This document shows positions 35,385-64,000 of a DNA stretch of 64,000 nt, piece after piece. Each line of letters starts with the position of its first letter. Position 1 is the stretch's first letter. The notes below the pieces were generated by a model, which saw only the letters and a program-made list of their open reading frames with translations, was not told the DNA's origin and ran no database searches. Source of the stretch: Mucilaginibacter aquariorum (GTDB lineage: Bacteria; Bacteroidota; Bacteroidia; Sphingobacteriales; Sphingobacteriaceae); contig NZ_JANHOH010000001.1 in NCBI RefSeq assembly GCF_024498135.1, positions 620,001-684,000 on the forward strand. The letters run 5' to 3'. The position numbers were made by a program, and so were the translations under genes.

Positions 35385-37748
35385 TTACTCGCTTCTTAAA
35401 CTTTTTATGGGGTTTACCCAGGCTGCTTTTATGGCCTGCCAACTAACGGCTATCAAACATAAAATAATACTTAAAAACAATGTTGCCACAAACACCCAAA
35501 CACTAAACGTTGTGTGATAGGTATACGTGTTAAGCCATTGGTTTATATTATACCAGCTTATAGCTGCCCCTATTACAAATGATACAAATACCAGTTTAAG
35601 AAATTCCTGCGATAGCTTTAACCAGAGCCCGGCGGTGCCTGCACCCAATATTTTACGGATACTTATCTCTTTTCCACGCCGCTCGGCTGAGAATGAAGCT
35701 AAGCCAAACAGACCGAGACAGGATATAATAATAGCTAAAAAGGTGAACATTACAGCCATTGTGCCAAGTTGCTGTTCGGCTTTAAACTTGTTGCTGAAAC
35801 TTTCGTCAGTAAATTTATAATCAAAGGGATAATATGGGTTATATCTTTTGTAGATCTCCTGCAAAAGCCCGATGTTTTTTGATATGGAATTTGCCGGATT
35901 AAGCCGCAGGCCTATATTACCTATCCAATCTTTTGAAAACCCTATTATAGTGGGTTTAACCGCTTCATACGGCGATCCCCATACAAAATCCTTTACCACG
36001 CCAATAATTGTGCGCTCGGCATTCATCCACGCAATTTTTTGTCCGATAGGGTCTTTCAAACGCATTAGTTTTACGGCAGCCTCGTTTAAAACAACTGCTG
36101 TTGAATCTGAAGGTCGATCTTTGGCAAAATCGCGGCCTTGTATTATCTTTATCTGATAGGTATCAAACATATGATAGGTAGCCGCTATACAATCTATAGG
36201 CAACTTATCTTCACCGGGTAACTGGCCCGGCCATTTATTTTTCCATGTAGCGCCGGTTATGGTGGTTATGGGCTCGGATATAATGGCGCCATCTGTAATT
36301 GCACCCGCGCTGATAGCATCCTGCCTGAAGCTTTCAAACTTATCATACATAGCGCCGTCTATCGGTAGTTCAATAAGCCCGCTACGGTTATACCCAATGG
36401 GGAGGTCTTTGATATAATTGATCTGCTTATAAACAAAAATGCTTGATATAACCAGGCAAATAGCAAAGGTAAATTGTATAACAACCAAAACCTGGCGAGG
36501 CCTGATAGTTGATCTTGTATTAACAAATTGCCCTTTTAAAACTTTAACAGGATTAAAGGACGACATAAACAACGCCGGGTAACTACCCGCGAACAAGCCC
36601 GTAATGACCGTTATTATAAATGTTATTAACCATACCCATATGTTGCTGTAAGGAATGTTTAACTGAATGCCAATAATGTTTCCAAATACAGGCAACAGTG
36701 TAATAATCAATACTAATGATAGCATTAACGCCACCAAAGCCATCAGCAGCGATTCGCCCATGAATTGTTTTATCAATGTGATGCGGCGGGCACCAATAGC
36801 TTTGCGGATACCCACCTCCCTGGCGCGACGTTCTGACCGGGCGGTAGATAAGTTCATGAAATTTATACAGGCGATAACCAATATACCGATAGCCATAAAG
36901 AGGAACAGGCGCACATAATCAATCCGCCCGCCCGCATTAACACCGTTTTTAAAATCGCCGCGTAAATGCAGATCAGTAAAAGGGTAAATAAATAATTTAA
37001 CTTCTTTATCAGGCGCAAAATGTTCACCTATAAGGTTCTTTATCTTTACATTAACAGTGTTGCTTGATGTACCGGGCTTTAAAAGCACGTAGGTGGCATA
37101 TGAATAGTTGTCCCAGTTTTCGCCCTTTAACCAGGGTTGCTGTGACAAAAATGCTTCCCACGAAATGATGACCTTAAAGTTAAAACTGGAATTTGGGTTA
37201 TCCTTTATAACCGCGCCAACCTTCATCGGGAACTGATTACCAAATTTTATAACCTGGCCTACCGGGTTTATATTGCCAAAAATTGCTTTAGCAGTCGATT
37301 CTGTAAATATGATGGAAGATGGATCGGACAAAGCGCTGCCCTTGTTGCCCTGTACAAAGTTAAAGCTGAACATGTTTAATATATCAGGGTCAACAGCCAC
37401 AGTATTAAATTTCAGCCCTTTGTCTTTGTAAAATATCACCACATCTTTCGGCTCGTTTATGCGGGCGGCATTGGCTATCTCAGGGATATCTTTCTTTAAT
37501 GCACCGGCAAGCAACTGCGGTGTAAACCATTTGGTGCGTATCCCGCCATAAGTTGGCTGATTTTTAAACACTTGGTATAAGCGGTCGCCATTTGTGTGGA
37601 ATTTATCAAAAATATACTCGTTGTAAACATAAAGGAGAAGCATGAAACTTACCGCCATACCGATAGCTAACCCGCCAATGTTTATCAGGGACGAGATCTT
37701 GTTTCTAGTAAGGTTTCTCCATGCTATTTTGAAGTAGTTTTTTATCAT
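35385..37748 (-). CDS. Double FtsX/MacB-type permease (most downstream of the array)
   Basis: A 787-residue inner-membrane protein. Layout: TM1 about 20-42; MacB periplasmic core 45-275; TM2-4 at 280-300, 330-354 and 370-392, with the coupling-loop motif EVGIRKAIG at 311-319; TM5 about 418-440; second periplasmic core 445-655; TM6-8 in the last 120 residues with KEISIRKILGAG. Two such halves in one chain equal a fused MacB dimer, so an ATPase subunit must come from elsewhere. Nearest sibling is the gene at 40469 (shared motifs WPGQLPGEDK and GVVKDFVWG). It has its own upstream palindrome and follows a terminator, so it is likely transcribed alone. Confidence 0.92.
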   Translation of the reverse strand: MIKNYFKIAWRNLTRNKISSLINIGGLAIGMAVSFMLLLYVYNEYIFDKFHTNGDRLYQVFKNQPTYGGIRTKWFTPQLLAGALKKDIPEIANAARINEPKDVVIFYKDKGLKFNTVAVDPDILNMFSFNFVQGNKGSALSDPSSIIFTESTAKAIFGNINPVGQVIKFGNQFPMKVGAVIKDNPNSSFNFKVIISWEAFLSQQPWLKGENWDNYSYATYVLLKPGTSSNTVNVKIKNLIGEHFAPDKEVKLFIYPFTDLHLRGDFKNGVNAGGRIDYVRLFLFMAIGILVIACINFMNLSTARSERRAREVGIRKAIGARRITLIKQFMGESLLMALVALMLSLVLIITLLPVFGNIIGIQLNIPYSNIWVWLITFIITVITGLFAGSYPALFMSSFNPVKVLKGQFVNTRSTIRPRQVLVVIQFTFAICLVISSIFVYKQINYIKDLPIGYNRSGLIELPIDGAMYDKFESFRQDAISAGAITDGAIISEPITTITGATWKNKWPGQLPGEDKLPIDCIAATYHMFDTYQIKIIQGRDFAKDRPSDSTAVVLNEAAVKLMRLKDPIGQKIAWMNAERTIIGVVKDFVWGSPYEAVKPTIIGFSKDWIGNIGLRLNPANSISKNIGLLQEIYKRYNPYYPFDYKFTDESFSNKFKAEQQLGTMAVMFTFLAIIISCLGLFGLASFSAERRGKEISIRKILGAGTAGLWLKLSQEFLKLVFVSFVIGAAISWYNINQWLNTYTYHTTFSVWVFVATLFLSIILCLIAVSWQAIKAAWVNPIKSLRSE

Positions 37749-37793
37749 GATTTAGGCATCGCTTATTTGTTTAATACTACAATATCAGCACTA

Positions 37794-37824
37794 TAGATGT
37801 TAAATTACAATTTTTAACATCTAT
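37794..37824. promoter_or_regulatory. 11-bp perfect inverted repeat, possible operator
   Basis: TAGATGTTAAA (37794-37804) and TTTAACATCTA (37814-37824) are exact reverse complements separated by 9 bases, 46 bases upstream of the start codon of the permease at 35385 and downstream of the terminator of the unit before it. The position suits an operator or a leader hairpin. No GC stem or U run, so a terminator is unlikely. Confidence 0.45.
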
Positions 37825-37834
37825 TAACTAAACA

Positions 37835-37864
37835 AAAAAGCGATGAGTTAAACCCATCGCTTTA
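37835..37864 (-). terminator. Intrinsic terminator inside the permease array
   Basis: On the minus strand AAAGCGATG and CATCGCTTT pair (plus arms 37839-37846 and 37856-37864) and are followed by TTTTTTG. It lies 38 bases after the stop of the permease at 37903 and ends the transcript that begins upstream of the gene at 45367. Confidence 0.75.
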
Positions 37865-37902
37865 TAAATCTTGATTCTTGTGTCTTTCCTCTTGATTCTC
37901 TT

Positions 37903-40377
37903 TTACTCGCTTCTTAAACTTCTAACCGGGTTGGCAACTGCCGCCTTTACGGTTTGGAAACTTAGGGTAACAAGGGCTGCCAGGAGCATACCGGACCCAC
38001 TCAGGGCGAAGATCCACCAGCTTATGGTGGTACGATCGGCAAAGTTTTCCATCCACTTGTGCATTGCCCAGTATGCAAGGGGTGTTACCAGTACAAAGGC
38101 CAGTACAATCAGCCATATTAGTTCGGTTGATAACAGGGTGACTATTTGCGCTACAGATGCCCCTAATACCTTACGCACGCCAATTTCTTTGGTGCGTTGC
38201 GTAGTGGTATAAATAGCCAGGCCCAATAATCCAAGGCAACTGATAAAGATAGACAAGCCCGTTGCCCATGTTAGCAGCTTTGATGTATTTTGCTCGGCAG
38301 TGTAAAACTTGGCAATGTTTTCATCATAAAAATTATATTCAAAATCATCTTCAGGATAAATGGCTTTCCAGGCTTTCTCTACACCGGCAATAGCTTTTTT
38401 CCACTCATCGCCACCCGCGGTTTGCGCTTTTAGGGCAATGTGGAAAGTGCGGTTGTTCCATTTATTTTTTACAGGTATTAAAATAGCCAAAGGTTTAATA
38501 GCTGAGTGTAACGATTTTTGGTAAAAATCTGCAGTAACCCCTATAATTTCCCTTTTCTTTTCATTGTAATCAAGCACTTTCCCGATGGCATCATCAGGGC
38601 TACGGAAGCCTAAAATTTTAGCATAAGTATTATTGATAACTACACCACCGCCGCCTACGGTATCTGTTGATTTTAAATTACGCCCGGCCAGCAGTTTTAT
38701 CTGGTAAACTTTCAGGTAGTTTTCATCGGCAAATTTTTGTTGCAGGTCGGTTTTAACTTCCTTTTTACCATCGTTATAAGTAACCATTGTGCTGTTTGTA
38801 TTACCAGATGATGGCGGGGCACCGCCAACGCTTATCATTTCAATTTGAGGGATGGCGCTTAACTTATTCATAAACACCTGCTGTTTGTTGGTATTTATTT
38901 GTTTAAATGGGGTTGATATATTTACTATGGCATCTTTTTTAAAGCCCAGATCTTTATGCAACGCGTAATATATTTGCTTGCTTACCAGTATAGTTGCCAT
39001 TATAAAAAACTGGGCTATAACAAACTGGGTTACCGTTAACGATTTACGCAACCATGCACTGCGAGATTTACTACCACCACTTTGCACCTGATTTTTAAGT
39101 ACCTGCGCCGGCTTATAGCCCGATAGCATAAGCGCCGGATAAAAACCGGATAATACGCTTACTACTGCAACCAGTATGAACAGGAATATAAACAGATCTG
39201 GCTGTTGCAGATAGTTTACTTTAACACCTTCGGGTATAAAACTGGAAAAAAGTTTTAATATAACCGGGGCTAAGGCTACAGATACAATAACCGCGAAAAG
39301 GGTAATAAGGAAGGTTTCGCTTAAAAATTGCATGATAAGCTGCCCACGGGTGCTTCCCATTGTTTTACGGATACCAATTTCTTTGGCGCGTTGCGATGCC
39401 TGCGCGGTTGTAAGATTAATAAAGTTGATACATCCCAATATCAACAGGAACGCGGCAATAATTAACAGGCCGTATAAGGTGGTTTTATTGGCCGTTCTAA
39501 CACCATCCATGCCGCCGTAAACCTGGTCAAAGTGGATACTCTCAAGCGGCTGCAAATGAAAACCCTGCGTATTTCCCTTATTTTCGGGCTTTGGCGGGTC
39601 ATGTTTTTTTAACATCACATTCAATTGCTTTTCAACCTGCGCGGCAGAGGCTTTGGGCGAAAGCTTTATAAATAGCTGTGATGCAGAGTTAGTATTTCCC
39701 CATTGCGACAACTCGAAATTATTTTTCAGGTAGCTATCGGTACTCCCGCTTATGTACGATATAAAATCATGGTAAGCAAAGTCCGTTCTCTCCTTTAAAG
39801 GCTCAACAATCCCGCTAACCGTGGTTTTAACCGAGTCGTCATATATCACTTGCTTGCCTATCATATCCTCATAATTTAATTTGGGGAAATAGATTTTGGC
39901 CTGGGTAGATGTAAGTACCACCTGGTTAGGTGCTTTCAAAGATGTTTTTGCCGATCCGCTGATCCACTTATAGTTGATCAGGTTAAAATACTGCTCATCG
40001 GTAAATATTACCCCCTCCTGCTTTTTAATTTTGTTATCGGCAGCCGTACCGTTAGGGATCAAAACGGTTGTTTCTCCGTAAATATAAAAAGGTGCAACTA
40101 TATCAATTCCGGTAGCCTCTGTTCTTGCCGCAGCGGGCAGGGCCATAGTTACCCCGCTGTTATGACCAACCTCGCCGGCAAACGAATAATCGGTTGTTAC
40201 ACGATAGATGCGGTCGCTGTCTTTATGAAATTTATCAAACGTAAAATCAAAGTGGACGATGAGATAAATTACCAACGCGGCACTAATGCCAATTGATAAA
40301 CCAACAATGTTGATCAGGGTAAAAAGCTTGTGCTTACGAAAACCCCGAAATGCGATTTTAAAATAATTTTTGATCAT
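37903..40377 (-). CDS. Double FtsX/MacB-type permease, divergent long member
   Basis: At 824 residues this is the longest of the array. It differs from its neighbours in the approach to TM2: VYGGMDGVRTANKTTLYGLLIIAAFLLIL instead of the GGxIEYVRLF type. The coupling motifs are KEIGIRKTMGSTRG and, near the C terminus, KEIGVRKVLGASVAQIV. The extra residues lie in the first periplasmic domain (ATGIDIVAPFYIYGETTVLIP). The C-terminal end is AAVANPVRSLRSE. It follows the gene at 40469 with 91 bases between, filled by copies of CTTGATTCTT, and ends in front of the terminator at 37835-37864. Confidence 0.9.
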   Translation of the reverse strand: MIKNYFKIAFRGFRKHKLFTLINIVGLSIGISAALVIYLIVHFDFTFDKFHKDSDRIYRVTTDYSFAGEVGHNSGVTMALPAAARTEATGIDIVAPFYIYGETTVLIPNGTAADNKIKKQEGVIFTDEQYFNLINYKWISGSAKTSLKAPNQVVLTSTQAKIYFPKLNYEDMIGKQVIYDDSVKTTVSGIVEPLKERTDFAYHDFISYISGSTDSYLKNNFELSQWGNTNSASQLFIKLSPKASAAQVEKQLNVMLKKHDPPKPENKGNTQGFHLQPLESIHFDQVYGGMDGVRTANKTTLYGLLIIAAFLLILGCINFINLTTAQASQRAKEIGIRKTMGSTRGQLIMQFLSETFLITLFAVIVSVALAPVILKLFSSFIPEGVKVNYLQQPDLFIFLFILVAVVSVLSGFYPALMLSGYKPAQVLKNQVQSGGSKSRSAWLRKSLTVTQFVIAQFFIMATILVSKQIYYALHKDLGFKKDAIVNISTPFKQINTNKQQVFMNKLSAIPQIEMISVGGAPPSSGNTNSTMVTYNDGKKEVKTDLQQKFADENYLKVYQIKLLAGRNLKSTDTVGGGGVVINNTYAKILGFRSPDDAIGKVLDYNEKKREIIGVTADFYQKSLHSAIKPLAILIPVKNKWNNRTFHIALKAQTAGGDEWKKAIAGVEKAWKAIYPEDDFEYNFYDENIAKFYTAEQNTSKLLTWATGLSIFISCLGLLGLAIYTTTQRTKEIGVRKVLGASVAQIVTLLSTELIWLIVLAFVLVTPLAYWAMHKWMENFADRTTISWWIFALSGSGMLLAALVTLSFQTVKAAVANPVRSLRSE

Positions 40378-40468
40378 ACACTGTTGATTTAATGTTGTGT
40401 TTATCTATCTCACACTTCCCTATTATCCTGATTCTTATATCTTGATTCTTACTTCTTGACTCTATTCC

Positions 40469-42835
40469 TTACTCACTCTTCAAGCTCTTCACCGGATTTG
40501 CCAACGCGGCCTTTATGGCCTGCCAGCTTACCGTACTTAAAGTTACCAGTAAACTTATAAATATGGTTGCGGCAAAAACCCATACACTTATATCGGTATG
40601 ATAGGTATAGTTTTTCAGCCATTCGCTCATAAAATACCAGCTGAGCGCCGCGCCGATAAAAAACGCTATTAACACCAGTTGTATAAACTCTTTTGACAGG
40701 TTATACCACAGGGCTCTTGTTGAGGCACCCAATACCTTACGGATCCCTATCTCTTTACGGCGCTGCTCGGCACTGAATGATGCCAGTCCGAATAAGCCCA
40801 GGCAGGATATCACAATGGCCAGTATCGTAAACGAATTTGCAAGCGTGCCCAATAGCTGTTCAGTACGGAACTTATTATTGAAAAGCTCGTCAACAAACTT
40901 GTATTCGAACGGGTATTCGGGGTTGTATTGTTTGTAAACCGATTCTAACTTGGTCATCGCGTTTGATACAGACAGCGCGGGATTTAAGCGCATGGTGGCA
41001 GTACCGGCCCAGTATTTCATATAACCCACTATTACCGGTTTTACAGGCTCGCCGGGGGCACCCCAATAAAAGTCTTTTATTACACCTACTACGGTACGCT
41101 TTTGCCCCTGCCAGGTAATGATCTGCCCAAGTGGGTTTTTCAGGCGCATTAATTTAACCGCCGATTGGTTCAGCATAACAGCTGTAGAATCTGACGGGCG
41201 GCCCGGGTCAAAATCGCGACCCTCTGCCATCTTAACACCAAATGTGCTGGTAAAGTGGTAAGTGGTAACCATCTGGTCAATTGGTATCTTATCCTCGCCG
41301 GGCAGTTGGCCGGGCCATAATACCCCCCACGATGCACCATCGGCATTGGCAATGGTATTTGAGGTGGCAGAGCCTTCTATAACTGCCCCGGTAGCAATGG
41401 CATCCCTCCGGAAATTCTCAAACTGATCGTATATTTTACCATCCTGCGAAATTTCTACCAGTCCGTTCTTATCGTATCCTAAAGGCCTGTTTTTAATGTA
41501 ATTAAGCTGTTTGTATATCAATATGGTTGACAGGATAAGGCAGGTTGCAAACACAAACTGCACAATAACAAGCACCTGCCTTGGCCGAAGCGTTGATGAG
41601 CCGGTTTTAAACACCCCTTTTAAAACCTTAACCGGTTTAAATGATGACAGGTACAGTGCCGGGTAACTACCCGCTATGATACCGGTAAGCACGGTTATAC
41701 CCAAACTTACCACCCAAAAATAAGGTTGGTTATAAGGGATAACCAGGTTTTTATGAATGATACTGTTAAAGTTTGACAGCAGCAGCGTAGTTATTACCAG
41801 GGATAACAAAAAGGATATAATCGCCATAAATAACGATTCGCCCATAAACTGCTGGATGATAGAAAAACGCCCGGCCCCTACAACCTTACGCACCCCAACT
41901 TCGCGGGCGCGGCTTTCAGATCGCGCTGTAGACAGGTTCATGAAATTGATGCAGGCTATCAGCAAAATGCCTATGGCTAAAAACATAAACAAACGAACGT
42001 ATTCGATAGCGCCGCCTGTGTTTACCCCGTTTTTGAACTGGCTGTAAAGATGTATGCGTTTATAAGGGAACAGGAACAATTTATTGTCTTTACTCTCGGG
42101 ATCATATCGGGGTATAATATTTTGCACTTTGGCGTTTAGCTCCTTAATATTGGCTCCTTCCTTTACCAAGGCATAATTTTTAAAGGCATAATTCCCCCAA
42201 CCAGAGTTTTTTACCCATGGCTGATCAGCTTCAACCATGGCCCACTGCCCCATTATTTTAAACTTAATGGTAGAGTTTTCGGGCATATCCTTAATAACGC
42301 CTGTAACGGTTACCAGGCGTTTATTATTTAGCTTAAAGGTTTTACCCATAGGGTCTTCATCACCAAATATGGCCTTAGCGCCCGATTCTGTAACTATAAC
42401 CGATGCCAGGTCTTTAAAAACTGTTTTTTTGTCGCCTTTTATAAACGTGTAGGAGAATATGTCCAGTATACCCGGGTCGGCAGATAGCATTGACACATTA
42501 AGCGACTTATCCTTATAATTTACAAGGTTATCACTCCCACCATTGGCACGAGCTGTTTTTTCAATCTCGGGGAAATCCTTTTTTAAAACCGCGGCAACCT
42601 GTACCGGCGTACTGTTACCTGTATTAATATTACCATCCGATTTTTGATTACACCAAACCTGGTAGATCCTGTCAATATTTGTGTGATTGTTATCATAGGT
42701 AAATTCGTTGTAAACATATAACAACAGCATAAAGCTAACGGCCATACCTACCGCCAGGCCGCCTACGTTTATAAAACTGAAAAGCTTGTGCTTGGCCAAA
42801 TTACGCCAGGCAATTTTAAAATAGTTTTTTATCAT
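40469..42835 (-). CDS. Double FtsX/MacB-type permease
   Basis: A 788-residue protein. Coupling motifs: REVGVRKVVGAGR after TM2 and KEIGIRKVLGAS near the end. The stretch NTGGAIEYVRLFMFLAIGIL puts it with the genes at 35385, 47991, 54175 and 59066, and the second periplasmic domain (WPGQLPGEDKIPIDQ, then GVIKDFYWG) is nearly the same as in 35385, so these two look like the youngest duplicate pair in the array. It is transcribed 28 bases after the gene at 42864 and ends NPVKSLKSE. Confidence 0.9.
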   Translation of the reverse strand: MIKNYFKIAWRNLAKHKLFSFINVGGLAVGMAVSFMLLLYVYNEFTYDNNHTNIDRIYQVWCNQKSDGNINTGNSTPVQVAAVLKKDFPEIEKTARANGGSDNLVNYKDKSLNVSMLSADPGILDIFSYTFIKGDKKTVFKDLASVIVTESGAKAIFGDEDPMGKTFKLNNKRLVTVTGVIKDMPENSTIKFKIMGQWAMVEADQPWVKNSGWGNYAFKNYALVKEGANIKELNAKVQNIIPRYDPESKDNKLFLFPYKRIHLYSQFKNGVNTGGAIEYVRLFMFLAIGILLIACINFMNLSTARSESRAREVGVRKVVGAGRFSIIQQFMGESLFMAIISFLLSLVITTLLLSNFNSIIHKNLVIPYNQPYFWVVSLGITVLTGIIAGSYPALYLSSFKPVKVLKGVFKTGSSTLRPRQVLVIVQFVFATCLILSTILIYKQLNYIKNRPLGYDKNGLVEISQDGKIYDQFENFRRDAIATGAVIEGSATSNTIANADGASWGVLWPGQLPGEDKIPIDQMVTTYHFTSTFGVKMAEGRDFDPGRPSDSTAVMLNQSAVKLMRLKNPLGQIITWQGQKRTVVGVIKDFYWGAPGEPVKPVIVGYMKYWAGTATMRLNPALSVSNAMTKLESVYKQYNPEYPFEYKFVDELFNNKFRTEQLLGTLANSFTILAIVISCLGLFGLASFSAEQRRKEIGIRKVLGASTRALWYNLSKEFIQLVLIAFFIGAALSWYFMSEWLKNYTYHTDISVWVFAATIFISLLVTLSTVSWQAIKAALANPVKSLKSE

Positions 42836-42863
42836 ACATTCAAATCTCCTGTCATACCTTATC

Positions 42864-45287
42864 TTATTCGCTCTTTAAGCTTTTAACCGGGTTAACCAAC
42901 GCGGCTTTAACAGATTGAAAGCTGATGGTTATAAATGCTATTGCCATTGCTCCACCACCTGCCACGGCTATTATCCACCATTTTATACCATCGCGGTAAG
43001 CAAAACCCTGCAACCATTTCTGCATAACTAACCATGCTATTGGCGATGCTATCAGGATAGCTATAATAACCAATTTTATAAAATCTTTGGAAAGCATTCC
43101 CACTATAATAGAAATACTGGCACCCAACACCTTACGGATACTTATTTCTTTAGTACGCTGCTCGGCAGCGTAAGCGGCAAGGCCAAACAGGCCAAGGCAT
43201 GCAATAACAATAGCCATGGTGGTAAAGGCAATAAAAATGTTCCCCATGCGCTGCTCGGTGCGGTAAGTATTTTCAAAATCTTCATCCATAAAGGAATAAT
43301 CCATTTGCTGGTTGGGCGATAGGGTGCGCCATTTTTCTTTCACCTGCGCTAATAAAGCGGTGGTTTTAGCGGTATTGATACGTACGGCGATGCTCCCCCT
43401 GCTCTCGTTCAAAGAAAATAGTACAGGTGTAATATTCTCGCGAAGCGTATTAAAGTTAAAATCTTTTACAACCCCTATAATATGAAGAACTTTGAACTTT
43501 TTCCCGCTGTTATCTATAGATTGATACAACTCTTTGTTAAGTGGATCTTTAAACCCTAAAATTTTAGCAGCAGCCTCGTTAATTATTAGGGCTGATGAAT
43601 CGCTTTTCATGGCTTTTGAGAAAGCACGACCGGCTATTATTTTCATGCCCATGGTACTTACATAATCCTCATCAATATCCCAGATCTGGCTGGAAAGGGC
43701 CTTTTTGATATCCAGCGTAGCATCCTGGAAGAAAGTGGTACTGTTGCGCCAATTACTGGTTGGTACAAAACCCGTCATGGTGGTGTTTACTACGCCCGGC
43801 AGTCGTTTTAATTCTTCTTTAAACACTTTTGATTGATTGCCTAAAATTTCGATATCATTTATGAGCATTACCTGTTCGCGGTTATAGCCCAGGTCTTTAC
43901 TTTGAATAAATTTAAGCTGATGATAGATAACCAATGTACCTATGATCAGAAAGATGGATATAGAGAATTGGAACACCACTAAAAAGCTGCGCAAAAAGCC
44001 ACCTTTAAAGCCGCTTGATAATTTGCCCTTTAAAACATCAATAGGCTGGAATGCGGAAAGGAAAAATGCGGGATATGAGCCTGCCAAACAACCTATTACC
44101 ACTACGGTAATAAGCAATGCCGGCAATAACCATACAAAGGTTGTTGCGGTAAAGGCAAGCTCTTTATCTGCCATTTGATTAAATACGGGCAATAACAACC
44201 AGGCCCCTATCACAGATATAACCGTAGCGATGAACGTTACCATTACAGACTCTGAAAGGAACTGTATGATAAGGTATTTACGCGGCGAGCCCAGCACCTT
44301 GCGCACACCAACTTCGCGGGCGCGATTGGATGAACGGGCAGTGCTTAGGTTCATAAAATTTACGCAGGCTATCAACAGAATAAATATCGCGATAGCAGAA
44401 AATATATAAACATATTGAATATTACCGTTTGCCCTTAACTCGGCCACACGGTTTGATTTAAGGTGAATGTCTCTTAGCGGAATTACACTTAACCTAAAAT
44501 AGTTCCCTCCCTTTTCAAGTTGCTCATAGCTCATATGAATGGCTGCCTGGATCTGCCCACCAACATACTTACTCACTAATACAGGGAGCTTTGCTTTAAG
44601 TTTTTCAATATCGGTGCCTTGTTTTAATAAAATATAGGTGTTAAAGTTATTGCTTAACCAGGCATCCTCTTTGCTCTCATCCAATCCTTTCATCGAAAGC
44701 AGGAAATCAAAATTAATGTGCGATTGTTTCGGGATATCTTTTATAACACCTGTAACCTTGTAAAACAGGGTATCGTTAAAAGTCAGCGTTTTGCCAACCG
44801 CGTCATCTGTATTAAAATATTTTCTCGCAGTAGTTTCGTTTATTACTACACTTTTTTCGTCGTTTAAAGCGGTTTTAGGGTCACCATGCAGCATAGGGAA
44901 TGTAAACACATCAAATACTTGCGGGTCGGCATATAAAAAATTATGCTCCTGTACGTTTTGGTCGCCTTTGCGTACCTTAAAGTTACCGCGCTCCCTAAAC
45001 CTTACTGCTTTTTCAACCTCGGGGAAATCGTTTAACATGGTTTGCGCCAATGGTGCCGGCGATACGGCATAACTGTTGGTATTGCCCCCAAACTTAATTT
45101 CGTTGTTGAGGCGGTAAACACGGTCGGCTTTTTTATTGTAAGCATCGTAGCCCAACTCATCTATCACATAAAAAATAATGAGCATACAAACGCATAAGCC
45201 CAAAGCAAGGCCCAATACGTTAATGATGGTAAAGCCCTTATTCTTTTTTAAACTCCTGAAGGCTGTTTTGATATAATTTTTAAACAT
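42864..45287 (-). CDS. Double FtsX/MacB-type permease
   Basis: An 807-residue protein that begins MFKNYIKTAFRSLKKNKGFT, a variant of the array's usual start. Before TM2 it reads ANGNIQYVYIFSAIAIFIL, grouping it with 45367 and 51558. Coupling motifs are REVGVRKVLGSPRKYL and KEISIRKVLGASISII. The second periplasmic part contains VLHIIGVVKDFNFNTL. The start lies 79 bases after the upstream gene at 45367, with no clear promoter boxes in the gap. The end is AALVNPVKSLKSE. Confidence 0.9.
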   Translation of the reverse strand: MFKNYIKTAFRSLKKNKGFTIINVLGLALGLCVCMLIIFYVIDELGYDAYNKKADRVYRLNNEIKFGGNTNSYAVSPAPLAQTMLNDFPEVEKAVRFRERGNFKVRKGDQNVQEHNFLYADPQVFDVFTFPMLHGDPKTALNDEKSVVINETTARKYFNTDDAVGKTLTFNDTLFYKVTGVIKDIPKQSHINFDFLLSMKGLDESKEDAWLSNNFNTYILLKQGTDIEKLKAKLPVLVSKYVGGQIQAAIHMSYEQLEKGGNYFRLSVIPLRDIHLKSNRVAELRANGNIQYVYIFSAIAIFILLIACVNFMNLSTARSSNRAREVGVRKVLGSPRKYLIIQFLSESVMVTFIATVISVIGAWLLLPVFNQMADKELAFTATTFVWLLPALLITVVVIGCLAGSYPAFFLSAFQPIDVLKGKLSSGFKGGFLRSFLVVFQFSISIFLIIGTLVIYHQLKFIQSKDLGYNREQVMLINDIEILGNQSKVFKEELKRLPGVVNTTMTGFVPTSNWRNSTTFFQDATLDIKKALSSQIWDIDEDYVSTMGMKIIAGRAFSKAMKSDSSALIINEAAAKILGFKDPLNKELYQSIDNSGKKFKVLHIIGVVKDFNFNTLRENITPVLFSLNESRGSIAVRINTAKTTALLAQVKEKWRTLSPNQQMDYSFMDEDFENTYRTEQRMGNIFIAFTTMAIVIACLGLFGLAAYAAEQRTKEISIRKVLGASISIIVGMLSKDFIKLVIIAILIASPIAWLVMQKWLQGFAYRDGIKWWIIAVAGGGAMAIAFITISFQSVKAALVNPVKSLKSE

Positions 45288-45366
45288 GACGTAAATTATT
45301 AATGTAAATCAATATCCCGGGCAGGTCTTCTGCTTAGGCTATATGACAACCTATAAAGCAAACAGG

Positions 45367-47778
45367 TTACTCACTTCGTAAACTTTTTACCGGGTTGGCC
45401 AGTGCGGCTTTAACCGATTGAAAGCTTACTGTTATAAAGGCTACCATTAATGCAAGGGCACCTGCTAACAGGAACACCCACAACGATATATCAATACGAT
45501 AGGCAAAGCCTTGCAGCCACTTATGCATGGCAAACCAGGTGAGCGGGAACGATATAACAATGGCAATAGTAACCAACTTTAAAAACTCTTTTGATAGCAT
45601 ACCGGTAATACTCACCTCTGATGCACCCAGTACCTTTCTGATGCCTATTTCTTTTACCCTTTGGCGGATGGTAAATGCAGCCAGGCCAAACAAGCCTAAG
45701 CTGGCTATAATAACCGCCAGAACGCTAAATGCCGTGAATATTTTACCGGTACGCTGTTCGGCAGTGTAGAGTATAGCAAACTGATCGTCGAGGAAGGTGT
45801 AGCTGAAAGGCCCGCTTGCATGGAAGCCGTCCCATTTTGTTTTAAGGTCAGCTAAAAACGGTTGCATATCGGCTGTTTTAACCTTTACAATTATTGATCC
45901 GTTGCTGTGCCCGTATAACATCATCAATGGGGCAATTGCTTCTTTAGCCGATGAGTAATGGAAATCTTTAACCACACCAATTATAGTAAACTCGTGCTGG
46001 CCCGAGCGCACAATGGTTTTACCTATAGCATCGGTTTTGCTTAAACCCAGATCGCGTACAGCGGCTTCGTTTATAACAACAGCAGATGAATCGCCGGGGG
46101 ATGCCGGTAAAAAGTTACGACCCAAAGCCATCTTCATACCCATGGTTGGTACATAACTTTCATCAACATGATAAATGTTGGCGTGGATCTCGTTATGCGG
46201 CTGGTTCATAGCCGTGGGCTTCAAATATATTTGTGTACCATCGTTAACCCGTACAGGTACATCGCTGGATATGGTGGCGTTTAATACTCGTTTATCCTGC
46301 AATAAGGTTTGCTTAAAAGGCTCGATATTATTCCCAAGTGTATAAGTATCATTTACCACTACTACCTGGTCTTTATCATAACCCAGCTTTTGGTTCTGCA
46401 TAAAACTTAATTGCTGATAAACAACCATGGTAGCTATAATAAAGCCTGTTGATATAGCAAACTGGAAAACTATTAACCCGCTGCGCAATAAGCTACGGTT
46501 GCTTTGTGTATTGCTATTCCCTTTTAATACGCTCAGTATTTTAAATGATGAGATAAAGAATGCCGGGTAAATTCCTGCGGCAGTACCTACAAATAAGGCT
46601 ACCAGTAATTCAATAGCAATAGCTTTATAACTTAAATAAAACGCCATGGTAAGATGTTTGCCGGCAACATCATTAAAGTAAGGCAATAACAGGTAAACTA
46701 ACCCTAAGGCCAGCGCCATTGCAAACCCGGTAAGCAGGATAGATTCTGCCAAAAACTGCGATACGAGGTTGCTTTTTAATGAACCCAGCACTTTACGGAT
46801 CCCCACCTCCTTTGACCGCTTTGCCGAAGCCGCGGTAGATAAGTTAGTAAAGTTGATACAGGCCAGTATTAATATAAATGCCGCTAATGCCCCAAATATG
46901 TAAATGTATTGCATATCGCCATTTGCCTCGCGCTCGTATTTGGTGTGCGATTTTAAGTGGATATCTGTAACTGGCTGTAGAGTAAAAAGAAACGTGTTTA
47001 CCGATTTTTGCGCCTCGGCAAGGCTCACACCCATATCCTGCTGAATTTCGGGCACTACATATTTAGCTACAAGATCGGGGAAGTGGGCTTGCAGTTTCTT
47101 TGGATCGGTGTTTTTATTTAATAGCAGGTAGGTATAATAACCCAGATTGCTCCAGGTTGCCCGCCTACCGGTAATGTAGGTTATAATGCTTACAAAACCA
47201 TCGGCATGGAAGTGTGAGTTATCCGGTACTTTATTAATAATGCCGGTAACTTTCATTGATTTATCGCCCACAGTAAGCATTTTGCCCATTGCAGTTGCAT
47301 CGCCAAAGTATTTTTTGGCCATATCTTTAGTGATCACAATACTATTAGGCTCGGTCATGCAGCTTTTTGCATCGCCCTCAAGTAATGGGATAGAGAACAA
47401 TTCTAAAAAATTGGCGTCAGCCATAGCAATATTGGCCTCTTTAAACTGACGATCATCATATTTAACAAACTGAGGCGAAAGGCTCCCCAGGCGGGTTGAC
47501 GCGATGATTTCGGGATAGGCATTTTTCATACCCTCGCCTACCGCGATATCAACCATAGGGTAAACAGTGCTGCCGCCATTTTCGGCAACGCCCAGGTTTA
47601 CCCGGTACAACTGATCTGCATTTGCCGAATAGGTATCATAGGTTAATTCCTGATACAAAAAGCCACTGATGAGCATGCAACAGGCAAGCCCAATAGCCAA
47701 GCCAGACATATTAATGAACGAAAATACCTTGTTTTTAGTGAGGCTTCTCCAGGCAATTGTAAAATGGTTCTTTATCAT
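45367..47778 (-). CDS. Double FtsX/MacB-type permease, first gene of a regulated unit
   Basis: An 803-residue protein that follows the shared promoter/distal element at 47788-47903, so it should be the first gene of the run 45367-42864-40469-37903. Coupling motifs: KEVGIRKVLGSLKSNL and KEIGIRKVLGASEVSI. Pre-TM2 stretch ANGDMQYIYIFGALAAFIL. A Cys pair occurs in TM1 (GLACCMLISGFLY). The second periplasmic domain has FTIIGVVKDFHYSS. The C-terminal region KWLQGFAYRIDISLWVF matches those of 54175 and 56587. Confidence 0.9.
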   Translation of the reverse strand: MIKNHFTIAWRSLTKNKVFSFINMSGLAIGLACCMLISGFLYQELTYDTYSANADQLYRVNLGVAENGGSTVYPMVDIAVGEGMKNAYPEIIASTRLGSLSPQFVKYDDRQFKEANIAMADANFLELFSIPLLEGDAKSCMTEPNSIVITKDMAKKYFGDATAMGKMLTVGDKSMKVTGIINKVPDNSHFHADGFVSIITYITGRRATWSNLGYYTYLLLNKNTDPKKLQAHFPDLVAKYVVPEIQQDMGVSLAEAQKSVNTFLFTLQPVTDIHLKSHTKYEREANGDMQYIYIFGALAAFILILACINFTNLSTAASAKRSKEVGIRKVLGSLKSNLVSQFLAESILLTGFAMALALGLVYLLLPYFNDVAGKHLTMAFYLSYKAIAIELLVALFVGTAAGIYPAFFISSFKILSVLKGNSNTQSNRSLLRSGLIVFQFAISTGFIIATMVVYQQLSFMQNQKLGYDKDQVVVVNDTYTLGNNIEPFKQTLLQDKRVLNATISSDVPVRVNDGTQIYLKPTAMNQPHNEIHANIYHVDESYVPTMGMKMALGRNFLPASPGDSSAVVINEAAVRDLGLSKTDAIGKTIVRSGQHEFTIIGVVKDFHYSSAKEAIAPLMMLYGHSNGSIIVKVKTADMQPFLADLKTKWDGFHASGPFSYTFLDDQFAILYTAEQRTGKIFTAFSVLAVIIASLGLFGLAAFTIRQRVKEIGIRKVLGASEVSITGMLSKEFLKLVTIAIVISFPLTWFAMHKWLQGFAYRIDISLWVFLLAGALALMVAFITVSFQSVKAALANPVKSLRSE

Positions 47779-47787
47779 GATAAATAT

Positions 47788-47903: not shown

Positions 47904-47920
47904 GTTTGAGGAAGATGTAA

Positions 47921-47978: not shown

Positions 47979-47990
47979 TTTATTCTAAAT

Positions 47991-51539: not shown

Positions 51540-51557
51540 TATGGTCTATGGACTAAA

Positions 51558-53960: not shown

Positions 53961-53978
53961 GGCGATGTTGTTTGACTA

Positions 53979-54095
53979 GATAAACTTAAATAAAATGCCA
54001 AATATATAATAGTCTAATTATCAATTAATTAAATCAATTATATATTTGGCAATACGTTCGTAAGTGTAACAGTATATGTTCGGTTATGATACAGT
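53979..54095 (-). promoter_or_regulatory. Shared control region B (promoter-like box plus distal element)
   Basis: On the minus strand the box TTGGCATTTTATTTAAGTTT (54001-53982) is matched to region A, and the distal element ACTGTATCATAACCGAACA (54095-54077), four bases, CTGTTAC (54072-54066) differs from A at a single base. Box-to-start distance is about 20-40 bases and box-to-element 65. TTGGCA equals the sigma-54 -24 element, but the -12 GC is absent. The A+T-rich stretch between them (54002-54050) includes a TATATAATTGATTTAATTAA bend-like run. Confidence 0.6.
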
Positions 54096-54122
54096 CCGAA
54101 GCAGAAGCAAAATGTTAGAATC

Positions 54123-54170
54123 AAGAGTCAAGAATCGAAAAACTGTCTTATGTCTTGATTCTTGACTCTT
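54123..54170. repeat. 14-bp perfect inverted repeat after the permease at 54175
   Basis: AAGAGTCAAGAATC (54123-54136) and GATTCTTGACTCTT (54157-54170) are exact reverse complements around a 20-base loop, five bases after the stop codon. The same word is repeated at 47931-47967, 37868-37900 and 40430-40460, always after a permease stop codon. Confidence 0.75.
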
Positions 54171-54174
54171 AAAT

Positions 54175-56541: not shown

Positions 56542-56586
56542 GATATTGAAATTTTAAACCCTATATCTAACTCTAATCATAAATCC

Positions 56587-58989: not shown

Positions 58990-59018
58990 ATGATTTAGCG
59001 TTAGATTATTACGTTACC

Positions 59019-59049
59019 AGTCATTGGCCTGTTTAACTGACCAATGACT
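59019..59049. repeat. 9-bp inverted repeat after the permease at 59066
   Basis: AGTCATTGG (59019-59027) and CCAATGACT (59041-59049) are exact reverse complements around a 13-base loop, 17 bases after the stop codon of the upstream gene and 30 bases before the next start codon. A short hairpin of the type seen behind other genes here. Confidence 0.55.
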
Positions 59050-59065
59050 AATAATAAAAAGTGAT

Positions 59066-61420
59066 TTATTCCGAACGCAAGCTCTTAACCGGGTTAGCCA
59101 TCGCGGCTTTCATGGTGTTAAGGCTTACTACTATCATGGTTAAAAGCAATATCAACACCCCTACACACGCAAACAGCCAAATACTGATATTAATATGATA
59201 GGTGTATTTTTGCAGCCAGTTACTCATCAAATACCAGGTTAACGGTACCGCAATAACAAAAGCTACCAACACCAACTTTAAAAACTCGGTTGATATCAGC
59301 ATTAACAGTTGTTGTACCGATGCGCCCATTACCTTACGCACCCCAATTTCGCGGAAGCGTTTTTCGATAGTGAATGATGCCAATCCGGCTAAACCTATAC
59401 AGCAAATGAATATGGCCAGGCCTGCAAATATGTTGGTGATGCGGCTTATCAACTCTTCGGTTACAAACTTTTTACCAAACTCCTGGTCTACAAACTGGTA
59501 CTCGAACAGGTTTTGCGGATTGTATTGTTTAAAAATAGGCTCCATTGCCTTAATGCCGGCTTTTGGGTTAGTGCCATCCTTAAACCGCACGTTGATCATG
59601 CTGGAATTATTGGGATCGTAATAGATCATAAGTGGTTCCACCGGGTCATATGGCGATGCCATTACAACGTTATCTATAACGCCGGCAACGGTAAACTTCC
59701 TGCCGTAGCGCATTTCCATACCTATGGGGTTCTTCAGCTTCATGGCTTCAACAGCCGCTTTGTTTAGCAGCATTACTGATGTATCGCCGGGTGTTTTATT
59801 AAAATCGCGGCCCTGCAATATTTTAATACCCATCGTTTTTGTAAAGTCGGCATCGGCATTTAGTCCCGAAAAAATAATATCACCATTTGCGGTCTTACCG
59901 GCATAATCAGGCGAGCCAGATTTCCACCAAATTTGTGTGATAGGCGATGAGGTACGGGTCACCGCGCTTACCAACCCGGTATTCAGCAGGTCTTGCTTAA
60001 TGGCCGCGTAGTTCTTATCTATATCGCTTGACGATGGCACCATTACCAGGTTGTTAGGGTTATATCCAATGCTGCGGTCTTTGATATGCTGTATTTGCTG
60101 GTAAACAATAACCGTAGCCGATATTAACAGTATAGACATAACAAACTGCCCAACAACCAATATCCGCCTTGGTAATACAGCGCTTTTACCCGCCGCGAAT
60201 GTGCCCTTAAGTACCTTAACCGGATTAAACGATGACAGGTACAAGGCCGGATAACTGCCCGCCACCAAACCGGTGAACAGAATGATGATGAGCGCACCGA
60301 TCATAAAGTACGGCTCAAAAATGCTCAGATGGAGGTTCTTACTAACCAGTGTGTTAAAGAATGACATCAGCAGGTAAACAAAACCTACCGAAAGTACAAA
60401 CGCTATCAACGCCAGTATAATAGATTCAAAGAAGAACTGGGTAATTAGCTGCCTTTTATCAGAGCCTAAAGTTTTACGGATCCCTACCTCTTTGGCACGT
60501 TTCTCTGAGCGGGCGGTACTCAAATTCATGAAATTTACGCAAGCTATGAGCAATATGATGATAGCGATAACGGTAAACATACGCACATACTCTATCATTC
60601 CCCCCACATTTTTACCATCCTTCCACTCACTGTACAAATGCCATTTGTTCATGGGGAAGGTATAATAAGTGCTTATTTTATCCTTGGGCGCATTGTCGTG
60701 TTTTATCTTGTCGATATACTTATCTATAGCGGCCATATTTGCACCGGGTGTGGTTTCAACGAATACATTATGCGATGAATTGTACCATTCCTTCATGCGG
60801 TTCTTCACATAATCTGATGTGTAATCAAACGGCTGTATAAAATCAAATTTGAAGGTAGAATTACCCGGAGGATCAGCCACAACAGCTGCTATCTTATAAC
60901 TTAGCTGATTATCAAGCCTTACGGTTTTATACATAGGGTCATCACTCCCGAAGAATGATTTAGCCGCAGATTCTGTGATGATGATCGACTTAGGGTCTTT
61001 AAGCGCTTCGCTTGAGTTACCCTTAATTGTTTTCCAGGTAAACATGTTAAAGAACTGCTCACTCGCCTGGTAAAGATCTTTCTTAAGTTTGGTATTTTTA
61101 TACTCAATCAGGTGCGATTCCTGGTGCGAGGTAACTACTGTTCTTACAATTTGAGGATTACCACCTTCAAGGGCTTTAGCCAACGGCAGCGCCATATTTG
61201 GATCTGTGAAGATGGTGGGCTTAAAATCGCGCGTGGCCATTACCTGGTAGATATTGTCGTGATCTTTATGAAACTTATCAAATGCTATCTCATCTTTCAC
61301 CCATAAAAAAATGAAGATGGTGCAGATCATGCCAATAGTAAGCCCCAAAATGTTGGTTATAGCGAATCCCTTGTTCCTGACAAGGTTACGCCATGCAATT
61401 TTTATATAGTTCTTTATCAT
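59066..61420 (-). CDS. Double FtsX/MacB-type permease, shortest complete member
   Basis: A 784-residue protein with start MIKNYIKIAWRNLVRNKGFA. Coupling motifs KEVGIRKTLGSDKRQL and REIGVRKVMGASVQQL. Pre-TM2 stretch KNVGGMIEYVRMFTVIAIIIL; the C-terminal YTYHINISIWLFACVG links it with 35385 and 40469. It has a variant second periplasmic domain: FTVAGVIDNVVMASPYDPVEP, where the common GVVKDF motif is replaced by GVIDNV. It follows the gene at 61441 by only 20 bases, so the two are translated from one transcript. Confidence 0.9.
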   Translation of the reverse strand: MIKNYIKIAWRNLVRNKGFAITNILGLTIGMICTIFIFLWVKDEIAFDKFHKDHDNIYQVMATRDFKPTIFTDPNMALPLAKALEGGNPQIVRTVVTSHQESHLIEYKNTKLKKDLYQASEQFFNMFTWKTIKGNSSEALKDPKSIIITESAAKSFFGSDDPMYKTVRLDNQLSYKIAAVVADPPGNSTFKFDFIQPFDYTSDYVKNRMKEWYNSSHNVFVETTPGANMAAIDKYIDKIKHDNAPKDKISTYYTFPMNKWHLYSEWKDGKNVGGMIEYVRMFTVIAIIILLIACVNFMNLSTARSEKRAKEVGIRKTLGSDKRQLITQFFFESIILALIAFVLSVGFVYLLMSFFNTLVSKNLHLSIFEPYFMIGALIIILFTGLVAGSYPALYLSSFNPVKVLKGTFAAGKSAVLPRRILVVGQFVMSILLISATVIVYQQIQHIKDRSIGYNPNNLVMVPSSSDIDKNYAAIKQDLLNTGLVSAVTRTSSPITQIWWKSGSPDYAGKTANGDIIFSGLNADADFTKTMGIKILQGRDFNKTPGDTSVMLLNKAAVEAMKLKNPIGMEMRYGRKFTVAGVIDNVVMASPYDPVEPLMIYYDPNNSSMINVRFKDGTNPKAGIKAMEPIFKQYNPQNLFEYQFVDQEFGKKFVTEELISRITNIFAGLAIFICCIGLAGLASFTIEKRFREIGVRKVMGASVQQLLMLISTEFLKLVLVAFVIAVPLTWYLMSNWLQKYTYHINISIWLFACVGVLILLLTMIVVSLNTMKAAMANPVKSLRSE

Positions 61421-61440
61421 GATATTGGTGATTAGTCATT

Positions 61441-63831
61441 TTATTCGGAACGTAAACTTTTTACCGGATTAGCCAGCGCTGCTTTTATAGATTGTATGCT
61501 GATAGTTGCCAGTGCAATTAACGTTGCCCCGCCACCGGCAAACAAGAATACAACCCAGCCTATATTTATTTTGTAGGCATAATCCTGCAGCCAGCTATTC
61601 ATAGCAAACCAGGCAATAGGCATGGCTATTACTATGGCTATAATAATAAGTACCATAAACTCGGTAGCCAGCAGACTTATAATTTTGGCCACACTTGCGC
61701 CAAGCACCTTGCGAATGCCTATCTCCCTTGTTTTTACCTGTGCCGAATAAGTAGCCAGCCCAAACAAACCAAGGCAGGATATTACAATAGCAATGGTTGC
61801 AAACAGGTTAAATAACTCTCCCTGCTTTTGTTCTGTTGTATACAGCTTATTATAGCTTTCATCTAAAAAAGCGTAGTTGAACGGCACATCGTTGTTGTAT
61901 TGTTTCCACGAGGCCAATGCCGCGGCTATGGCTTTCTGTGCGTCGCGGCCGGTGGTTTTCACATATACACGCCAGGAATAGTCGGGCTGGTATTGAAAAA
62001 CAACGGGTTCTATTTTTTTATGAATTGTAGTATAGTGGAAATCTTTAACCACTCCAATGATAGTGCCGTTACGAGTTTGGATACGCAGGCGTTTACCAAC
62101 CGGATTTGTAAGCCCCATTTCTTTAACGGCTGTTTCGTTGATCAGGAAGTGCGCCGAATCGGCCACTGCACCTGTAAAATTAGCGCCGTCAAGTATCTTC
62201 ACTTTAAAGAACGGGATAAAGTCCTTATCAGAATAGATTTGGGTAAACCACATATTTGAATTTGTAGGTTTGCCATCCCAATCGTTATCACCTGTAGAAC
62301 TACCGCTTTGTATAATATCAGACCCGGCACGGGTTACTGATAACACAGCCGGATTTTTAAGCAATTCGGTTTTTACTACATCGTAATGTTTCTGCATTTC
62401 GTTACGCATATTGAAAGAGAACACGTTCTCTTTATCGTAACCCAGGTTTTTATTACGGATAAATTTGAGCTGATTGCCAATAACCAGCGTACCAATGATC
62501 AATATGATGGATGCGGAAAATTGCAAAACAACCAGGATCCTCCTGAATGCCACATTACCTATACTTACAGATATTTTGCCTTTCAGCGCTTTTAATGGTT
62601 CAAAAGATGATAATAGCAATGCCGGATAAATACTTGAAGCCGCAAGCGTACCCAACAAGGTTAGTATAATACAAAGCCAAATGTTATAGTTAGACAGATC
62701 TAAAGTGATCTGCTTACCCGAAAACTGATTGAAATTTGGCAGCAGGACAACCATTAATATAAAGGCAAATACAGCAGCTATCATAAACAGCAATGCGGTC
62801 TCCACCATAAACTGCATAAAAAGCTGGAATTTGCCCGCGCCAATTATTTTACGCATACTTACCTCTTTAGCACGCAGCATAGACCGAGCTGTAGACAAGT
62901 TCACATAGTTGATACAGGCGATTACCAATATCATTAAAGCTACAATGGCAAAGGTGCTCACGGTTGACATGCCTCCATCCGTTCCATCGGCTTTATAAAG
63001 GTGCATTTTAAGCAATGGTTGAGTCAGGTATGGTACTGGTGCATCCTCGGGTTTATTGCGCTCATGGATAGCCTGCAATTTTTTTTCGAGTGCGGTTGCA
63101 TCAACCCTATCACCTTTCATTAACAAATAGGTTTGAAACCTAAAGGCCGACCAGTCGGCATCTATTGATGAGACAACGGTTTTATTGTCATAACTGGTCT
63201 TACTTTTAACGTAGGCCAGGTAATTAAACCTCGACATTGGCATTAACACATGGTATTTGAGGCTTGAGTTAGCAGGGTAATCAGGTATCACTCCCGTAAC
63301 TTTGTTCTGTTCGTCCTGCCCAGTAATAACTACTTTACCTATTGGGTCCTCGGTGCCAAAATACTTTTTGGCTGTGCTTTCGGTAATTACAAGGGAGCTG
63401 TTATCAGGAAATGGATTATTTTTGTCGCCTTTAATCAAATTAAAATCAAACACCGTAAAGTATGACGGATCTACAAAGGCAAAATCGGGCTCGTAAAAAA
63501 TCTTGTTTTTATATTTAAACGGAGCCTCGCCAAGCGCTATAATACGTACAGCATCTTTAACCTCGGGTATCTCGTTTTTAGCGAAAGTGGCAACCGGCCC
63601 TATAATGTTATTAAATATTTGTTTACTGATGCCTGTACCGCCAACTATACCTATTTTATAAATGTTTTTGGCGTTTGAATTAAACTTATCATAGCTCAGC
63701 TCATCCTGCACCCAAAGCAGCATAAATAAGCCTACAACAAGGCCAACTGTTAGCCCGGCCACGTTAATGGTAGCGTAAAACTTATTTTGTAATATGTTAC
63801 GCCAGGCAGTTTTTATATAGTTTTTTATCAT
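61441..63831 (-). CDS. Double FtsX/MacB-type permease
   Basis: A 796-residue protein starting MIKNYIKTAWRNILQNKFYA. Coupling motifs KEVSMRKIIGAGKFQL and REIGIRKVLGASVAKI, same subgroup as 56587. The pre-TM2 stretch is DGGMSTVSTFAIVALMIL. The second periplasmic domain contains GTIIGVVKDFHYTTIHKKI. The C-terminal tail DYAYKINIGWVVFLFAGGG is like 51558. It begins 24 bases after the stop of the partial gene at the window edge, so the array continues beyond the window. Confidence 0.9.
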   Translation of the reverse strand: MIKNYIKTAWRNILQNKFYATINVAGLTVGLVVGLFMLLWVQDELSYDKFNSNAKNIYKIGIVGGTGISKQIFNNIIGPVATFAKNEIPEVKDAVRIIALGEAPFKYKNKIFYEPDFAFVDPSYFTVFDFNLIKGDKNNPFPDNSSLVITESTAKKYFGTEDPIGKVVITGQDEQNKVTGVIPDYPANSSLKYHVLMPMSRFNYLAYVKSKTSYDNKTVVSSIDADWSAFRFQTYLLMKGDRVDATALEKKLQAIHERNKPEDAPVPYLTQPLLKMHLYKADGTDGGMSTVSTFAIVALMILVIACINYVNLSTARSMLRAKEVSMRKIIGAGKFQLFMQFMVETALLFMIAAVFAFILMVVLLPNFNQFSGKQITLDLSNYNIWLCIILTLLGTLAASSIYPALLLSSFEPLKALKGKISVSIGNVAFRRILVVLQFSASIILIIGTLVIGNQLKFIRNKNLGYDKENVFSFNMRNEMQKHYDVVKTELLKNPAVLSVTRAGSDIIQSGSSTGDNDWDGKPTNSNMWFTQIYSDKDFIPFFKVKILDGANFTGAVADSAHFLINETAVKEMGLTNPVGKRLRIQTRNGTIIGVVKDFHYTTIHKKIEPVVFQYQPDYSWRVYVKTTGRDAQKAIAAALASWKQYNNDVPFNYAFLDESYNKLYTTEQKQGELFNLFATIAIVISCLGLFGLATYSAQVKTREIGIRKVLGASVAKIISLLATEFMVLIIIAIVIAMPIAWFAMNSWLQDYAYKINIGWVVFLFAGGGATLIALATISIQSIKAALANPVKSLRSE

Positions 63832-63855
63832 GATATTGATTTTTATAAATGGTAT

Positions 63856-64000
63856 TTATTCACTCCGTAAGCTATTCACCGGGTTTGCCAATGCAGCTTT
63901 TACAGCGTGATAACTTATAGTGACTATTGCTGTTATTAATGCCATTGAGCCTGCCAACGCAAACACCCACCATGGGATATTAATACGATAAGCAAAGTTT
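63856..64000 (-). CDS. Double FtsX/MacB-type permease, C-terminal fragment (cut by window end)
   Basis: The last 47 residues of another array member, ending in a TAA at 63858-63856: FAYRINIPWWVFALAGSMAL, later AVKAALANPVNSLRSE. This is the TM8 end of the FtsX domain, with the same closing motif (NPVxSLRSE) as the complete genes. The rest lies outside the window. It shows that the array has at least twelve members. Confidence 0.85.
   Translation of the reverse strand, partial: NFAYRINIPWWVFALAGSMALITAIVTISYHAVKAALANPVNSLRSE

Follow-up and report, generated by a model that had tools for sequence, protein, structure and literature searches.

Fifteen MacB/FtsX-type permease genes in a row in Mucilaginibacter aquariorum: the probable permease bank of a tripartite type VII ABC exporter

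The darobactin exporter has a single DarB permease, and ECF transporters are importers whose membrane subunits are unrelated to the array permeases described here. To our knowledge, ADOP genes are described as essentially never adjoining an ATPase. ADOP-like permeases belong to the large gene families that are still unexplained in Acidobacteria and Bacteroidota. In the available parts of two reports, 28 and 33 genes of two Dyadobacter genomes are labelled "acidobacterial duplicated orphan permease" by RAST annotation (PMC11573002), and an acidobacterial MAG has 102 such permease genes, 80 of them transcriptionally active (PMC10564751). The accessible text on MacB describes a helix between TM2 and TM3 and a C-terminal helix that touch the ATPase, and a protein that acts by mechanotransmission into its adaptor and TolC (PMC5985334). 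YbbP, according to the accessible part of its description, binds two YbbA ATPases via two coupling helices (PMC12646458).

The window, by which we mean the whole 64,000-nucleotide stretch of M. aquariorum DNA that was analysed, ends inside a long permease array (Table 1). Eleven complete permease ORFs of 784-824 residues lie on the minus strand at 35385-63831, and the 3' end of a twelfth follows at the edge; the ORFs bear out an earlier note on this DNA, which had described eleven complete and one partial look-alike permeases on one strand. Pfam likewise agrees with its view of a long array of MacB/FtsX-type permeases: two MacB_PCD and two FtsX stretches were found in each array permease scanned (9 of the 11 complete ones in the window). 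P13, P14 and P15 follow P12 past the window edge, and the full run comprises 15 permeases and one toastrack gene. Intergenic gaps, from the adaptor gene through P1, measure 20-236 nt. The toastrack protein, on which the earlier note is silent, has, by eye, a signal-peptide-like stretch near its start, and synteny places its gene within the permease array of many relatives too. Elsewhere in the window, two minus-strand ORFs about 3.5 kb apart (20340-22265 and 25796-27721) both encode exactly 641 residues and are possibly a duplicated gene.

Table 1. Positions of the permease array, its upstream genes and three solitary relatives. Positions without a prefix are those of the window; L001, L009, L010 and L011 are further stretches of the same genome.
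Feature	Position	Strand	Basis or remark
Permease P1, 787 aa	35385..37748	-	Ends the array; G004 and G013 have orthologues
Permease P2, 824 aa	37903..40377	-	ORF, family scan, Pfam, orthologue comparison
Permease P3, 788 aa	40469..42835	-	ORF, family scan, Pfam, orthologue comparison
Permease P4, 807 aa	42864..45287	-	ORF, family scan, Pfam, orthologue comparison
Permease P5, 803 aa	45367..47778	-	ORF, family scan, Pfam, orthologue comparison
Permease P6, 789 aa	47991..50360	-	ORF, family scan, Pfam, orthologue comparison
DUF4097 toastrack (LiaG-like) protein, between P7 and P6	50387..51523	-	Pfam PF13349; NCBIfam LiaG below cut-off
Permease P7, 800 aa	51558..53960	-	ORF, family scan, Pfam, orthologue comparison
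Permease P8, 788 aa	54175..56541	-	Consistent orthologue in none of six genomes compared
Permease P9, 800 aa	56587..58989	-	ORF, family scan, orthologue comparison
Permease P10, 784 aa	59066..61420	-	ORF, Pfam, orthologue comparison
Permease P11, 796 aa	61441..63831	-	ORF, alignment, orthologue comparison
Permease P12, 3' end	63856..64000	-	Complete gene 797 aa, window 63856-66249 = L001:357-2750
Permease P15, first of the run	L001:7692-10070		236 nt downstream of ATP1
ATP1, ATPase, 225 aa	L001:10307-10984		Directly upstream of the array; best family DarD
Adaptor, 418 aa, HlyD-type	L001:11124-12380		Best family DarC; exceeds RND adaptor cut-off
NtrC-class response regulator and kinase	L001:12682-15382		Divergent from the adaptor
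AraC-fused permeases	L009:5665-9186, L010:4470-7919, L011:4499-8185		Contigs C11 and C14 of the window's genome

The absence of an ATPase from the first array is an effect of the window edge. The part of the run inside the window contains no ATPase, adaptor or outer-membrane channel gene, as the earlier note had stated, but ATP1 and the adaptor gene stand just outside, about 10-12 kb past the window end. A search near the array ends for orphan ATPases and two-component genes, which that note had proposed, yielded ATP1, the adaptor, the regulator and the kinase. Its picture of a shared, distant ATPase survives in part: sharing among the permeases is our best inference, drawn mainly from gene counts and gene order, whereas the ATPase is not distant, ATP1 being the first gene upstream of the array. 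The opposite arrangement, an ATPase beside every permease, was not seen; each array has one. A second array of six permeases lies on the other strand at C1:352-369 kb, about 290 kb from the first; after its permeases come another DarD-like ATPase (ATP2) and a TolC-like protein, both found by family search. The window's genome therefore has 15 + 6 permeases, in a locus of two parts that encodes an HlyD/DarC-like adaptor, two DarD/LolD-type ATPases, a TolC-like duct and an NtrC-type regulator with its kinase.

Gene order in relatives joins the two parts. We collected 64 loci via the adaptor, the closest being Mucilaginibacter loci at 94-95% identity. The ATPase is the next sizeable gene after the adaptor in 59 of the 64, and a permease comes next in 57. 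A divergent regulator gene is present in 57 loci; the other seven are without one in the sequence examined, several of them lying at contig ends. The array was traced in 38 genomes, the window's own included, and two that have 89% of their 40-mers in common (G011 and G028) were counted once, leaving 37. Adaptor, ATP1, permeases, ATP2 and TolC form a single run, sometimes with a small extra ORF, in 17 of the 37 distinct genomes (G002, G003, G007, G010, G012, G024, G027, G028 = G011, G029-G036 and G039); where such a stretch started at ATP1, the adaptor was taken from the corresponding adaptor locus. What the window shows is thus a portion of a tripartite type VII ABC exporter locus that has been split.

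The genomes in which the run is interrupted suggest how the split arose. A block running from recR to trpB, as we name these genes from their protein sequences, parts array 1 from array 2 in seven of the 37 (G004, G013, G019, G021, G022, G023 and G025). G014 has the block and the second permeases, and its stretch stopped short of ATP2, which a separate search placed further on; for the other 12, the window's genome among them, the examined stretch did not extend to ATP2. Since the recR-trpB block still stands before array 2 in the window's genome, we infer that the two arrays derive from one ancestral locus and were parted by later rearrangement. Counting array size across related genomes, as had been proposed earlier, gave from 2 full-length permeases (>700 aa) per contiguous locus in G035, which has 2 short ones besides, to 21 in G010 and G012. 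In the wider phylum, 37 of 296 sampled genomes have a relative of ATP1 at E <= 1e-100 when nine candidates are scored in each.

The array probably serves as a bank of alternative permeases for a tripartite type VII (MacB/LolCDE/FtsX-class) ABC exporter, all of them sharing one ATPase/adaptor/duct set. Each 800-residue permease would be a fused pseudo-dimer like YbbP, docking two ATPases via two coupling helices, and the permeases would alternate on, or compete for, one small set of ATPases, adaptor and duct. A permease's own two periplasmic domains would choose the periplasmic or membrane-derived cargo to be driven into the adaptor and TolC. The locus would be turned on by the kinase and regulator via a sigma-54-type promoter, an envelope signal being the probable trigger.

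The array permeases have the marks of type VII ABC permeases, namely MacB_PCD and FtsX domains (Pfam, 9 of 15) and a coupling region between TM2 and TM3. Invariant residues occur in both putative coupling regions and in the C-terminal motif of all 89 aligned permeases, including 15 of 15 from the array; the invariant coupling columns are E325, K330 and G333 in the first region and E718, I719, R722, K723 and G726 in the second (P14 numbering). Conservation is high in the coupling regions, and the two periplasmic domains are among the least conserved parts. An AlphaFold model of P14 (pLDDT 83, pTM 0.77) has YbbP as its best structural match (Z 24.4, 658 residues aligned, rmsd 10.5) and also matches BceB, MacB and LolCDE chains, LolE included. 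Among solved sequences the best match is 3is6, a Porphyromonas gingivalis domain annotated as a permease. On the simplest reading of the model and its likeness to YbbP, each array permease would by itself form the whole membrane part for two ATPases of the ATP1/ATP2 type.

The same structural matches could point to the handling of lipids. The permeases might lift different lipids or lipoproteins off the inner membrane in the manner of LolCDE or YbbAP, with the adaptor and TolC serving only some of them; LolCDE and YbbP are both among the matches of the P14 model, and YbbAP is reported, in the accessible text, to extract hydrophobic compounds from the inner membrane (PMC12646458). However, the ORF lists contain no possible partner gene in the array other than that of the toastrack protein, and the linked adaptor and TolC suggest efflux. 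We regard lipid or lipoprotein handling as the main role of the array as distinctly unlikely.

Most permease lineages have been kept. Orthologues compared with G013, G014 and G004 give dN/dS of about 0.03-0.12 where computable, approximate values in that dS is mostly >1 and six saturated permease pairs were left out; the permeases thus stay under purifying selection. These values and the open frames contradict an array of silent pseudogenes, which had been raised earlier as an alternative and which we rejected. One consistent full-length best match in G004, in nearly the same order, was found for 13 of the 15 permeases, P8 and P14 being without one; judging by these matches, array slots are gained and lost and most permease lineages are retained. 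Best matches were mixed along the protein in 22 of 90 permease-by-genome comparisons. By our reading, 16 of the 22 concern permeases without a clear orthologue in the genome in question; the remainder are five cases in the related pair P4/P14 (G017, G022 and G026) and one in P1 (G017). The P4 and P14 cases, which come from three genomes, hint at possible exchange between the two.

Such matches would also fit a selfish or neutral tandem expansion, in which recombination inflates the array and most copies stand idle. The number of full-length copies ranges widely (2-21), and five relatives (G013, G019, G021, G025 and G035) have short permease ORFs that look broken, although sequencing errors are possible there. 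Idle copies nevertheless fit poorly with the low dN/dS, with 13 of 15 permeases each having a single consistent G004 orthologue and the order being nearly unchanged, and with the divergence within the array, where the other 14 permeases are only 31-45% identical to P13. An array inflated in this way is very improbable.

Solitary relatives of the array permeases raise a different role. Ten further full-length permeases of the array class lie in L004-L011 and L013, where no ATP1-like ATPase was found, L010 ending at a contig end. Three of the solitary permeases have an N-terminal AraC-type DNA-binding domain behind a hydrophobic start, looking as if the permease directly moved a transcription factor, and some relatives may thus be sensors, not pumps. 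Similar open frames of about 1150-1250 residues occur in other genus members. Another solitary permease (L013:5937-8618) has about 110 extra N-terminal residues, which matched no Pfam family, and a 359-residue half permease (L019:6946-8025), with one FtsX domain and the usual C-terminus, is probably a remnant.

If this role extended to the array, most of its permeases would signal inward as BceAB- or HAAS-permease-like sensors, each responding to a different envelope insult and passing its signal to the linked kinase or to other regulators. Besides the three AraC-type fusions, the toastrack gene inside the array and the kinase/regulator pair beside it fit such an arrangement, and the accessible text of one study on PSP systems describes FtsX/MacB_PCD proteins with a fused HAAS signalling domain, as well as toastrack genes adjoining ABC genes (PMC11237479). 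The array permeases themselves, however, have no such fusion, the longest of the 15 being 824 residues. Both coupling regions are kept in 15 of 15, and the locus encodes an adaptor and TolC, which sensors would not need. We consider it unlikely that the array is a set of sensors.

Permease numbers vary far more than ATPase numbers. At strict thresholds, 27 of 27 relatives have one copy of ATP1 and one of ATP2. The number of FtsX domains in 13 genomes of the genus runs from 8 to 98, and that of ATPase domains, which tracks genome size, from 42 to 72; with genome size allowed for, the slope is 0.014 ATPase per FtsX domain. The window's genome has one further ATPase, 72% identical to ATP1 (L162:8322-9002; G000:C3:269324-270001), which we examined as an additional partner; the surrounding 18 kb contained no permease that we recognised. 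This orphan ATPase, present in 8 of 149 genus genomes including the window's, might serve the solitary permeases.

ATP1 is unusually well conserved. It exceeded control type VII ATPases in 14 of 14 genomes (92-100% vs 81-94%), two controls being used, of which at least one was found in 14 of the 24 genomes searched. Its conservation also exceeds that of RecR, TrpB and HtpG wherever an identity could be compared. ATP1 is still 98% conserved in G015, which has only 4 permeases, and this weakens the reading that many partners constrain a hub. ATP2 is ordinary, being no better conserved than the best control in 5 of these 14 genomes. Within the shared-exporter reading we tentatively entertain a combinatorial form, in which a regulated ATP1/ATP2-adaptor-TolC chassis would serve a set of interchangeable pseudo-dimeric permeases, about twenty at most. 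ATP1 would perhaps sit on one half of each permease and ATP2 on the other half, and the export repertoire would grow by permeases only, much as the uptake repertoire of ECF transporters does.

Conserved elements precede the adaptor gene. Of 52 regions upstream of this gene, taken from 51 loci and the window's genome, 45 contain TGGCAY-N3-6-TTK, and the reverse strand gave 0. Shuffles had a mean of 0.64 and a highest count of 4, a test that overstates independence in that the regions are related; the pattern was also chosen after viewing the sequences. The count shows conservation more than it provides independent evidence for a putative sigma-54-like element. Strict patterns found no perfect -24/-12 sigma-54 site in the window's genome, which does have the relaxed conserved element and encodes RpoN. 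Further upstream of the adaptor, within L001:12381-12681, an element of about 40 nt hardly varies among 16 aligned sequences, those of the window's genome and of 15 close relatives out of the 51 regions, whereas its surroundings differ; it may be a binding site for the regulator.

Hairpins lie at two gene boundaries. A G+C-rich hairpin of 10 pairs, 8 of them G-C, occupies L001:10997-11020 inside the 139-nt gap between ATPase and adaptor genes and could set unequal amounts of the two proteins. Between P2 and P1, just upstream of P1, a terminator-like hairpin of 12 pairs with a T tract (window 37837-37863) means that P1 may be transcribed separately and that the array may not be one transcript. 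Scans for consensus promoters and terminators gave counts mostly near shuffle level. Two counts stood out: terminator-like sites in L001 numbered 27 (shuffle 18.4, sd 4.1), and promoter-like sites in window 34000-45500, mostly on the plus strand, numbered 43 (shuffle 29.2, sd 5.7).

By their family scores, the array permeases are relatives of the ADOP and DarB families that fall below the family cut-offs. They score 254-343 bits against 622 for ADOP (TIGR03434; 10 of 15 array permeases scanned) and 91-177 against 700 bits for DarB (array permeases scanned). The adaptor reaches 143 bits against DarC, with an equivalog cut-off of 450, and ATP1 303 bits against DarD, with one of 375. A literature search, with most subscription papers outside its reach, returned only mentions of orphan permeases and no description of the complete locus. 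The earlier note's remark that it knew of no description of such a set therefore holds for the complete locus and fails for the permeases, which resemble the ADOP family, large sets of which are published.

The locus differs from each of its closest counterparts in a definite way. Like ADOP permeases, the array permeases match over both halves and form large paralogous sets; unlike them, they have an ATPase 236 nt upstream of P15, an adaptor and regulators. The locus thereby gives ADOP relatives a testable set of partners and a likely role, beside ATPases, adaptor, duct and regulators. DarB-DarC-DarD likewise combines a double permease, an adaptor and a separate ATPase, but the array locus has many permeases instead of one. 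E. coli YbbAP pairs a single-chain double permease with a separate ATPase, two per permease, and YbbP is the best structural match to the P14 model; its partner, however, is TesA, not an adaptor or TolC, and the accessible text gives YbbP ten TM helices (PMC12646458), against eight hydrophobic peaks in the hydropathy profiles of the array permeases. The likeness to group II ECF transporters is functional only: there, in the part of the source available, several substrate-binding subunits are proposed to compete for one energising module (PMC7755397).

MacAB-TolC shares an adaptor, an ATPase, a MacB-like permease, a TolC-like duct and conserved coupling regions with the array locus, which encodes these components together, as one run in 17 of 37 genomes and in two parts in the window's genome. 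The array locus departs from MacAB-TolC in that the ATPase is a separate protein, the permease a probable fused pseudo-dimer and the permeases many per ATPase. Unusual as it is, the locus can be interpreted as a variant of the tripartite type VII exporter, and it offers a case in which shared energisation among such exporters could be tested.
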